DNA from: Paracidovorax cattleyae
Lineage (GTDB): Bacteria > Pseudomonadota > Gammaproteobacteria > Burkholderiales > Burkholderiaceae_C
Assembly (NCBI RefSeq): GCF_900104515.1
Contig: NZ_FNJL01000005.1
Coordinates: 124,001 to 188,000 of the forward strand
Length of the DNA stretch: 64,000 nucleotides
Direction: 5' to 3'
Shown: positions 4,096-49,962 of the stretch, one piece after another
How positions within the stretch are numbered: position 1 is the stretch's first letter
Layout of the letters: every line of letters begins with the position of its first letter
Notes under the pieces: model-generated
What the model was told of the DNA's origin: nothing
Seen by the model: only the letters and a program-made list of their open reading frames with translations
Database searches by the model: none
Translations under genes and position numbers: made by a program

Positions 4096-4154
4096 TGCCG
4101 CGAACGCCGGCACGCCTCCTGCAGGCGGGCGACTCCAGTGGCTCCAGGCGCCCG

Positions 4155-4194
4155 GTCACGGTACCGTCACCAAAGCGTCAAATCCCCGTCATCA
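4155..4194 (+). promoter_or_regulatory. tandem Pho boxes (PhoB operator) of the phoX gene
   Basis: GTCA occurs at 4155, 4166, 4177 and 4188, that is, four copies in exact 11-bp phase, three of them as CGTCA. PhoB binds 11-bp direct repeats with a TGTCA-like core, two per box, so this reads as two consecutive Pho boxes. The array lies about 125 bp ahead of a gene encoding a PhoX-type phosphatase, which is the expected target. The regulator itself is not in the window. Confidence 0.8.
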
Positions 4195-4315
4195 CGGATT
4201 CCTAGCATCCCGGTCCGGAGACAGGCCCGGGTACGCCCGGCCTGCCCATCGAGAGGCCCGTTGCGCATTCATGCGTCTGCGGCGCCCGTACAGCAGACCG
4301 ACCCATCCGGAATCC

Positions 4316-6755: not shown

Positions 6756-7979
6756 ATGACCACCGCTTCGTTCCAAACCACCGTTCTCTCCGGGCTGCTG
6801 GCCATCGTTGCGCTCGGCTCCACGGGGGTGGTCCTGGCACAGGCGGCCCCGCAGGGCGCCGGCGTGTCCGCCGCGGCGCCTTCGGCCACGGCGGTCACCC
6901 CCGCCGCCGTGGCGGCGCACTACGCCGTGCTGGTGCACGCGAACTACGAGGACGCGCTGAACGCCGCCAGGACGATGCAGGCCGCCATCAAGGCCTTCAC
7001 CGCCAGGCCGTCCGCGGAGACTCTGGCCGAGGCGCGCAAGACCTGGCTGGCCGCGCGCGAGTTCTACGGGCAGACGGAAGCGTTCCGCTTCTACGGCGGC
7101 CCCATCGACGACGACAAGGGCCCGGAGGGCCAGCTCAACGCCTGGCCCATGGACGAGTCCTATGTGGACAGCGTGGAAGGCAAGCCCGGCTCGGGCCTGG
7201 TGAATGACCGGAAATTCGCCATCACCAAGAAGAACCTCGCCGCGCAGAACGAGCGCGGCGGCGAGGAGAACGTCGCCACGGGCTGGCATGCCATCGAGTT
7301 CTTCCTGTGGGGGCAGGACCTGTCCGAGACCGGCCCGGGGGACCGCAATTTCGAGGACTTCGTGGACGGCAAGGGCCGGAACGCCGACCGCCGCCGCCAG
7401 TACCTGAACGTGGTCACGGACCTGCTCATCGACGACCTGGCCTCGCTCGTCAAGGCCTGGGACCCGAAAGCGCCGAACAACTACCGCGCGAAGTTCGTGA
7501 AGGGCGGCCAGGAATCCGTGCGCAAGATGCTGGTGGGCCTGGGCTCGCTGTCCCGCGGCGAGCTGGCTGGCGAGCGGCTGGAAGTGGCCCTCAACAGCCA
7601 GGACCAGGAAGACGAGCACTCCTGCTTCTCCGACAACACCCACCGCGACGCCGTCGCCAATGCCCTGGGCATCCGGAACGTCTGGCTCGGCGAGTACCGG
7701 CGTGCCGACGGCAGCCTGGTGCAGGGCGCCTCGCTGCGTGGCCTGGTCGCCAAGAAGGACGCCGCACTGGCCGAACGGACCACGCAGCAGATCGCCGCCT
7801 CCGTGCAGGCAGCCGAGGGCATCCAGGCCCCCTTCGACCGCGAGATCATCGGCGGCAAGGACGCCCCGGGCCGCCTGCGCATCCAGAAAACCATCGACAG
7901 CCTCACGCAACAGAGCAAGGATCTCGTGGAGGCCGCCAACGCCATCGGCATCACCAAGCTGACGCTCGTGCAACCGTGA
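6756..7979 (+). CDS. imelysin-family protein (IrpA-like, peptidase M75)
   Basis: This 407-residue exported protein is the first gene of an iron-regulated operon. A signal peptide (residues 1-30, cleavage near VLAQA) is followed by the imelysin domain, whose hallmark GWHAIEFFLWG places the conserved GxHxxE motif at Gly176, His178 and Glu181. Imelysins are periplasmic or outer-membrane iron-regulated proteins thought to bind ferric iron or haem; protease activity is doubtful. A good ribosome site (aggag) precedes the ATG at 6756. The next gene begins within a few bases of the stop. The operon order imelysin, di-haem oxidoreductase, imelysin, DUF1513 is widespread in proteobacteria. Confidence 0.9.
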   Translation: MTTASFQTTVLSGLLAIVALGSTGVVLAQAAPQGAGVSAAAPSATAVTPAAVAAHYAVLVHANYEDALNAARTMQAAIKAFTARPSAETLAEARKTWLAAREFYGQTEAFRFYGGPIDDDKGPEGQLNAWPMDESYVDSVEGKPGSGLVNDRKFAITKKNLAAQNERGGEENVATGWHAIEFFLWGQDLSETGPGDRNFEDFVDGKGRNADRRRQYLNVVTDLLIDDLASLVKAWDPKAPNNYRAKFVKGGQESVRKMLVGLGSLSRGELAGERLEVALNSQDQEDEHSCFSDNTHRDAVANALGIRNVWLGEYRRADGSLVQGASLRGLVAKKDAALAERTTQQIAASVQAAEGIQAPFDREIIGGKDAPGRLRIQKTIDSLTQQSKDLVEAANAIGITKLTLVQP

Positions 7980-48393: not shown

Positions 48394-49041
48394 TCAGGAG
48401 TTCTCGAGGATGATGCCCTCGATGTGGTTGGCCACGTCCTCGCACTTGTCGGTGATGGTTTCCAGCAGCTCGTAGATGGCCTTGAGCTTCAGCACCTCGC
48501 GAACGTCGGGCTCTTCGCGGAAAAGCTTGCTCATGGCGCTGCGCATGACGCGGTCGGCATCGCTTTCCAGGCGGTCGATTTCCTCGCAGGTCTTGAGCGC
48601 CGCCTCGGCCACGCCCGGGTCGGCGATCTTCTCCAGCAGCTTGACGGCATCGCGCAGCCGCTCGCAGCACTTCAGGCTCAGGTCCGTGAGGCGGGTGATC
48701 TCTTCGGTCATGTGGCGCACGTCATAGAGCGCCATGGTTTCTGCCGAGTCCTGGATCACGTCGGCCACGTCGTCCATCGTGTTGATGAGCGAATGGATCT
48801 GCTCGCGGTCGATCGGGGTGATGAAGGTCTTGTGCAGCGTGCGGTTGACCTCGTGCGTCACGCGGTCGGCGGCACGCTCGGCGTTGTCCACGTCCTGGTT
48901 GTACTTGTCGCGCAGGTGTGGGTCGTTGTAGTTGGCGACCAGCTGGGAGAAGGCCCTCGCCGCCTCGACGATGCGGTCCGCATGCTGGTTGAACATCTCG
49001 AAAAAATTGCCCTCGCGGGGCAACAGCTTTCCAAACAACAT
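48394..49041 (-). CDS. DUF47-family (PhoU-like) Pit accessory protein
   Basis: This 215-residue all-helical protein belongs to the DUF47/TIGR00153 family, related to PhoU, starting MLFGKLLPREGNFFEMFNQHA and containing TFITPIDREQIHSLINTMDD. In other bacteria the DUF47 partner is needed for Pit function or its control. A strong ribosome site (aggag) precedes the ATG. It is the first gene of the DUF47-pitA unit. Confidence 0.93.
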   Translation of the reverse strand: MLFGKLLPREGNFFEMFNQHADRIVEAARAFSQLVANYNDPHLRDKYNQDVDNAERAADRVTHEVNRTLHKTFITPIDREQIHSLINTMDDVADVIQDSAETMALYDVRHMTEEITRLTDLSLKCCERLRDAVKLLEKIADPGVAEAALKTCEEIDRLESDADRVMRSAMSKLFREEPDVREVLKLKAIYELLETITDKCEDVANHIEGIILENS

Positions 49042-49095
49042 CGGGACTCCTGGACGACTGGCAGGCATGCGCCACCTGCGACGGCTGCCGCATTG

Positions 49096-49110
49096 TGACG
49101 AAATGGTGAC
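49096..49110 (-). promoter_or_regulatory. Pho box upstream of the DUF47-pitA operon
   Basis: On the minus strand CGTCAC occurs twice exactly 11 bp apart, with an A+T-rich spacer, the same arrangement and the same CGTCA core as in front of phoX. It lies about 55-70 bases upstream of the DUF47 start, near where a promoter is expected. Depending on its position relative to the start site, PhoB could activate or repress. Confidence 0.65.
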
Positions 49111-49112
49111 GA

Positions 49113-49359
49113 TTTCAAGAAAGGCGCGAGTTTAACCGCGACCGCGCTCCGCTCCGATCCGGATAAATGCCGCCGGATGCGCAGCGTTGGGCCGGCGTAT
49201 GCGCTTTCTTGTCAGCGCATTCCTACAAATGCGGAACGTGAGTACCCACAAACCTGCGGCGCCGCGCCCCGTCCAATGGCCCCAAGGCCCGCGCGCGGGC
49301 CGAGGTGCAGCCTCCGATCCTGCCGCCGCCCAGCCGTTTTCACACCACAAGGAACACCC
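49113..49359. other. remainder of the intergenic region between DUF47 and the outer-membrane gene
   Basis: These 247 bp hold the start signals of the outer-membrane protein gene (ribosome site aagga ahead of 49360). No gene or recognised RNA is seen, and no promoter could be defined. Confidence 0.4.
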
Positions 49360-49962
49360 ATGCACACACCGAACCGCTCCCTCCGCCTGCTGTCCTGCGC
49401 CCTGGCGCTCGCCTGCGGCACCATGGCCGCCCACGCCCAGGCCAGCCGCGCGACCGGCAACTCCTTCATACCCGCCACGCAGCAGGGCTATATCGGCCTG
49501 AGTGCGGGCCAATCCAAGTACGACCTGCGCAACGGCACGAGCCTCTTCAACTTCGACGACAGCGATACCGGCTGGAAGCTCTACACGGGCGGCTTCTTCC
49601 ACCCCAACTTCGGGGTGGAGTTCGGCTACCTGAACTTCGGCAAGGCCAGCCGCCTCGGTGACGACACCAAGGCCCAAGGCCTGAACTTCAGCCTGGTGGG
49701 CCGCGCTCCGATCGGCGAGCAGTTCGACGTGTTCGGCAAGCTCGGCACCACCTACGGGCGCACCCGCACGTCGGGCAATCCGGGCTTCGGTGTCGCCACC
49801 GGCAAGGACGACGGCTTCGGCCTCTCCTATGGCGCGGGTGTGCGCTGGGCCTTCAATCCCCAGTGGGCCGCCGTGCTGGAATGGGAGCGCCACCGTCTGC
49901 ACTTCGCCGACGGCAAGTCGGACGTGGACATGACGACGATCGGCGTGCAGTACCGGTACTAA
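49360..49962 (+). CDS. outer-membrane beta-barrel protein (OmpA/OprG-like)
   Basis: This 200-residue protein has a signal peptide (ending AAHAQA, residue 28) and then alternating amphipathic strands such as QQGYIGLSAGQSKYDLR, GWKLYTGGFFHPNFGVEFGY and GFGLSYGAGVRW, ending in an aromatic residue (GVQYRY), the usual signal for BAM-dependent insertion. It looks like an eight-stranded barrel. The function, pore or adhesin, is unknown. It is a single gene with a terminator shared with livF. Confidence 0.82.
   Translation: MHTPNRSLRLLSCALALACGTMAAHAQASRATGNSFIPATQQGYIGLSAGQSKYDLRNGTSLFNFDDSDTGWKLYTGGFFHPNFGVEFGYLNFGKASRLGDDTKAQGLNFSLVGRAPIGEQFDVFGKLGTTYGRTRTSGNPGFGVATGKDDGFGLSYGAGVRWAFNPQWAAVLEWERHRLHFADGKSDVDMTTIGVQYRY

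Follow-up and report, generated by a model that had tools for sequence, protein, structure and literature searches.

The 64,000-nucleotide stretch of Paracidovorax cattleyae DNA examined here (contig NZ_FNJL01000005.1, positions 124,001 to 188,000; hereafter, the window) carries a DUF47 gene on its minus strand, followed after 29 bp by pit, which encodes a phosphate transporter. This is gene order of the orfA-pit type, with PF01865 preceding PF01384 on the same strand. Upstream of the DUF47 gene there is a Pho box, a direct repeat like those at promoters activated by the regulator PhoB, and the present analysis concerns the position of this box, its conservation and the sign of the control that it is likely to exert. 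All features are listed in Table 1.

The pit gene was the sole match to PF01384 in the whole genome. In Escherichia coli, pitA and pitB encode low-affinity Pit transporters, to which the window protein bears a likeness; it differs in falling far below the cut-off of the PitA model (NF033774), against which it scored 148 bits where the curated threshold is 800 bits. The first-pass annotation had named the gene pair DUF47-pitA, which was correct as to DUF47 and the Pit family, while on this score PitA appears too specific and the transporter is better named 'pit'.

The minus strand at 49095–49111 reads CGTCACCATTTCGTCAC, that is, two copies of CGTCAC separated by N5 at an exact 11-bp period. The repeat had been noticed in the first-pass annotation, and both minus-strand copies and their period were confirmed; its extent was corrected from 49096–49110, and its distance from the DUF47 start, previously put at about 60 bp upstream, was measured as 53 bases to the ATG at 49041. 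The box lies 17 bp downstream of a TAAACT hexamer and therefore between the putative promoter and the start codon. There is a possible decayed third half-site; the pair that includes it scored only 7.32 bits with the matrix described below. Promoters of this kind have a usual spacing between the -10 element and the transcription start, which was used to place the predicted start of DUF47; relative to this start, the half-site array would cover about +1 to +28.

The bare pattern was not sufficient to establish that the repeat is a Pho box. Within the window, CGTCAC-N5-CGTCAC was matched without error at DUF47 alone, and hits within two mismatches occurred there at chance level (8 observed, 9.24 expected). 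Across the 5.6 Mb genome there were two exact matches, compared with four for a backward control pattern, and so the rarity of the pattern proves nothing. The other exact genomic match (G000:C89:92403-92419, or L002:1501-1517) is near an M23-peptidase-like open reading frame and is possibly due to chance. A 19-bp matrix was built from 48 unique pstS and phoX sites of relatives, leaving out the pstS and phoX sites of this genome. With this matrix, the DUF47 site scored 18.98 bits and ranked second in the window; ranks one, three and four were pairs within the phoX array (20.45, 18.82 and 16.49 bits), and the next site scored 9.99 bits. The likeness to the phoX boxes claimed at the outset was thereby upheld. 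One of 10 shuffled windows reached the score of the DUF47 site. The repeat has the GTCA-core half-sites, the 11-bp period and the matrix score of boxes at activated genes; it is significant through that score and through conservation before the orthologous gene, rather than through the bare pattern.

Table 1. Positions of promoter elements and genes at the DUF47-pit and phoX loci of the window
Feature	Position	Strand	Remarks
Pho box, two intact half-sites CGTCAC-N5-CGTCAC	49095..49111	-	GTCA cores at 49110-49107 and 49099-49096
Possible decayed third half-site TTTCTT	49117..49122	-	In register, 11 bp upstream of the first intact half-site; putative
-10-like hexamer TAAACT	49129..49134	-	Match to TA[ACG]A[AC]T; putative active -10
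Predicted transcription start region, about 49122	49120..49124	-	Placed by usual -10-to-start distance
Shine-Dalgarno-like AGGAG	49047..49051	-	Sequence
DUF47 gene (PhoU_div, PF01865), 215 amino acids	48394..49041	-	Family match
pit, Pit/PHO4-family phosphate transporter gene (PF01384), 336 amino acids	47354..48364	-	29 bp after DUF47
phoX Pho box array, four half-sites at 11-bp period	4154..4192	+	Activator layout; pattern and matrix
-10-like TAGCAT of phoX	4203..4208	+	11 bp after last GTCA
phoX-like phosphatase gene (PF05787), 653 amino acids	4316..6277	+	Family match

Conservation and geometry of the box

The DUF47 upstream regions of relatives were compared, with one region per genus. From the matches listed, 87 genera were picked and 85 used, rows L148 and L203 being dropped because their start was not recognised (L026 was dropped for the same reason); five of the 85 genera are outgroups at the level of the order. 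One of the two source searches alone gave matches in at least 101 of 126 genera. An exact pair at the 11-bp period was present on either strand in 36 of the 85 genera (GTCA-N7-GTCA in 26, TGAC-N7-TGAC in 10), whereas 200 rounds of shuffling gave 0.37 on average and never more than 3. When periods from 6 to 22 bp were scanned, only the 11-bp period and twice that length, 22 bp, were favoured. By the matrix, 53 of the 85 genera exceeded the 1% null threshold, where 0.9 would be expected.

The motif TA[ACG]A[AC]T, to which the hexamer of the window belongs, was found in 74 of the 85 DUF47 regions (shuffle mean, 4.6). In all 33 genera that had both an exact pair and the motif, the pair was situated 4–19 bp downstream of it, an interval that comprises 14% of the possible positions for a pair; three further genera had a pair and no motif. 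Best matrix sites were also downstream of the motif in 47 of 53 genera. Offsets of single GTCA cores after the motif peaked at 7, 18, 29 and 40 bp, which places the half-sites in helical phase with the -10 motif; in the window, the GTCA cores occur at offsets 18 and 29, and the decayed TTCT at offset 7. In a named set of 80 loci, the exact pair was present in 33 and the motif in 79. Two pairs of this set were near a second match to the hexamer, closer to the gene; in these, the box follows the conserved hexamer by 6 and 18 bp. The named Paracidovorax loci L204-L206 have the same upstream sequences as the genus-mates L013, L015 and L016. Two Comamonas loci (L210 and L260) had no recognisable Pho box at pit, and L210 also had no -10 motif.

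Eight other copies of TA[ACG]A[AC]T were present in the window, and three of these are followed after 6–8 bp by an ATG, a candidate start codon; such a spacing would be as expected of a -10 element. The three copies, at 1553 and 39383 (plus strand) and 18756 (minus strand), read TACAAT or TAAACT and would fit leaderless transcripts.

The arrangement at DUF47-pit was contrasted with that of promoters activated by PhoB. The activator set contained 46 upstream regions of pstS and phoX; L091 and L110 failed the orientation test, and L111-L116 were not included. A pair was identified in 38 regions and was missing from 8. In all 38, when gaps from 5 to 13 bp were scanned, a TANNNT hexamer followed the last GTCA at 11 bp. 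This layout of box, 11 bp and TANNNT occurred in none of the 85 DUF47 regions on either strand. The two kinds of promoter therefore have the GTCA core and the 11-bp period in common and differ in the order of their elements: at pstS and phoX the box is followed, after 11 bp, by the -10 element, while at DUF47-pit the -10 element comes first and the box after it. The window holds both layouts, that of an activator at phoX (4154–4208) and the -10-first order at DUF47-pit (49095–49134). Layout is thus suggestive of the sign of PhoB control, and the earlier proposal of one PhoB regulon in this window, with opposite signs for phoX and pit, gained support from an activator layout and a repressor layout that are both kept across genera.

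In relatives, the phoX array can reach five half-sites in register, and all of these arrays stop 11 bp short of TAGCAT. The phoX gene of the window is followed on the same strand by an imelysin-family (Peptidase_M75) gene at 6756–7979; genes of this family are often tied to iron uptake.

Orientation of the box in related clades and in the phylum

Box orientation was mapped onto a tree of 78 DUF47 proteins (61 family rows), for which the bootstrap was not fully settled. Orientation was scored from pairs located at any point within the final 130 bp, weak labels allowing one fixed change. Two sister clades were distinguished by orientation. The forward clade had 27 members with a forward pair, three with a weak forward pair, 11 without a pair and none with a reversed pair (support 97/75, or 98/92 for 40 of its 41 rows). 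Its sister clade (support 99/98) had 10 reversed pairs, seven weak reversed pairs, three members without a pair and no forward pair. This distribution would fit a single inversion of the box or two separate origins equally. Reversal of the operator at the level of a clade is the most unusual part of the case.

The reversal did not extend to the activated promoters of the same genomes. When all 17 genomes of the reversed clade were searched for pstS, a main pstS gene was obtained in 16, and all 16 kept a forward box and the 11-bp gap. Of the 19 pstS-type regions returned, 11 also had loosened reversed pairs at a greater distance upstream; those of the type TGAC-N7-TGA[AC] preceded the forward box in 10 of the 16 main pstS regions (L374-L389), where they perhaps activate a divergent gene. 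Blocking of a promoter would be expected to tolerate reversal of the box, while activation through contact with polymerase would not, and an element acting at the level of RNA would not survive reversal.

In the rest of the phylum, PF01865 was present in 93 of 199 genomes, and 50 loci were inspected (30 returned and 20 picked). Neither of the two loci from the same order had a pair. Within the same class but outside the order, even a loosened pair was found at only two of 22 loci (L309 and L311). Among 26 loci from other classes, eight had an exact reversed pair (L300, L314 and L318-L323; families f51, f61 and f64) and in one (L326) there was a forward pair at a distance. The tree did not include six f64 loci that lack a pair (L299, L301, L304, L306, L308 and L312), so that the proportion of 8 of 11 seen there overstates the share for other classes. 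At the eight loci with a reversed pair, this was of the type TATGACA...TGACA and close upstream of DUF47, like the box reported for orfA-pit of Sinorhizobium meliloti; from this parallel, the class concerned was assumed to be Alphaproteobacteria.

Taken together, it is rather probable that the pit operator of Burkholderiales stands in helical phase with the -10 element and is reversed in the same place between sister clades while pstS sites stay forward, and that shutting off pit through it is a widespread part of the Pho response across this order and some members of a second proteobacterial class. Confidence in this broader statement had been somewhat higher and was lowered because the evidence from other classes amounts to 8 of 26 loci, not 8 of 11.

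Probable repression by PhoB and alternative explanations

It is likely that phosphorylated PhoB sits on the start region of DUF47-pit and so represses the operon, and that it activates phoX and pst. From the sequence, we infer that the hexamer is an active -10 element, that PhoB would bind the box and that binding would bring about repression. In high phosphate, PhoB would be unphosphorylated and RNA polymerase would use the TAAACT promoter, and both DUF47 and the low-affinity importer would be produced. In low phosphate, phosphorylated PhoB would fill the half-sites over or just past the start, and the binding, opening or escape of polymerase would be blocked sterically; at the same time, PhoB would activate pst and phoX, where the box precedes the -10 element by 11 bp. 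The genome has a phoB gene that scored over the family cut-off, about 4 kb from pstS on contig C41, and open reading frames between the two resemble phoU and pstB in our reading of the locus. The DNA-binding domain of this PhoB resembles that of E. coli PhoB (PDB 1gxp, E = 3.6e-30).

There are known parallels. Phosphate starvation is described as repressing the orfA-pit operon of S. meliloti, whose box is immediately before the translation start (PMC3131613), and S. meliloti pit as falling under phosphate stress (PMC8829014); these accounts bear out the Sinorhizobium precedent for negative regulation of pit that the first-pass annotation had cited. The predicted repression of DUF47-pit parallels this already known case: both have a DUF47-type gene with pit and a Pho box near the translation start, and the negative phosphate response described there is predicted here. 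The sampled pairs from other classes were mostly reversed, whereas the window box is forward. PhoB is also reported to activate or repress according to the position of its site (PMC10294691). A PhoB site at the -10 element of E. coli phoB is described as blocking polymerase, and is similar in that it coincides with core promoter elements; that site is weak, with unusual half-site spacing and a role in autoregulation, while the site in the window is strong, normally spaced and belongs to a transporter operon (PMC6194859). Among the literature matches listed, no title or start of an abstract described a Pho box at pit in Comamonadaceae or Burkholderiales, which is not proof of absence.

Several observations weigh against repression by PhoB at DUF47-pit. 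A matrix score below the 1% threshold was obtained for 32 of the 85 genera, and in a good part of the genera no box could be recognised. The -10 pattern was picked after the alignment had been looked at; two of the 53 best matrix sites were upstream of the motif, and four of these 53 regions had no motif. No -35 signal above shuffles was detected in the DUF47 regions, and none is claimed. Across the 74 regions with the motif, 27 half-sites (22 of them TGAC) occurred within 50 bp upstream of it, compared with 123 within 50 bp downstream. Against generality, E. coli pitB was excluded from the PhoB targets, and PhoB sites within genes had no roadblock effect there, according to PMC10294691.

Among the other explanations, the best survivor is that PhoB activates DUF47-pit in low phosphate from the same box, with transcription starting nearer the ATG. 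The window box does point toward DUF47, as boxes do at activated genes. This was nevertheless considered very unlikely, given the conserved hexamer upstream of the box, the occurrence of TANNNT 11 bp after GTCA in 0/85 DUF47 regions and in 38/38 activated promoters with a pair, and the reversal of the box in the sister clade where pstS boxes are not reversed. Still less likely is use of the site by some other regulator of the OmpR/PhoB family with a similar direct-repeat motif. Many regulators of this family bind direct repeats, and the genome contains about 60 related matches to the phoB model, but the site fits a matrix built on pstS and phoX boxes, and it is a phosphate transporter that would be controlled.

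That the repeat is a functionless coincidence could be argued from the two exact genomic matches against four for the backward control, and from the one shuffled window in 10 that reached the matrix score; retention of the 11-bp period and of the phase to the -10 element across genera makes this extremely unlikely. Equally improbable is that the box serves the divergent OmpA-like gene (49360–49962, plus strand), which shares the intergenic region with DUF47, as the box is about 250 bp away and points in the other direction, and no reverse-strand activator layout was found in the 85 regions.

If PhoB does repress DUF47-pit through this box, the layouts would provide a sequence rule for the sign of PhoB control in the family: box, 11 bp and -10 element for on, -10 element followed by box for off. 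Regulation of Pit differs among species, according to a review (PMC4415409), and the layout rule would allow it to be predicted genus by genus. The organism would be expected to close down its low-affinity phosphate importer while turning on the high-affinity one. The reversal of the operator at the level of a clade provides natural promoter pairs for testing PhoB repression and, if true, would constitute a natural experiment that separates orientation-bound activation by PhoB from orientation-free repression.
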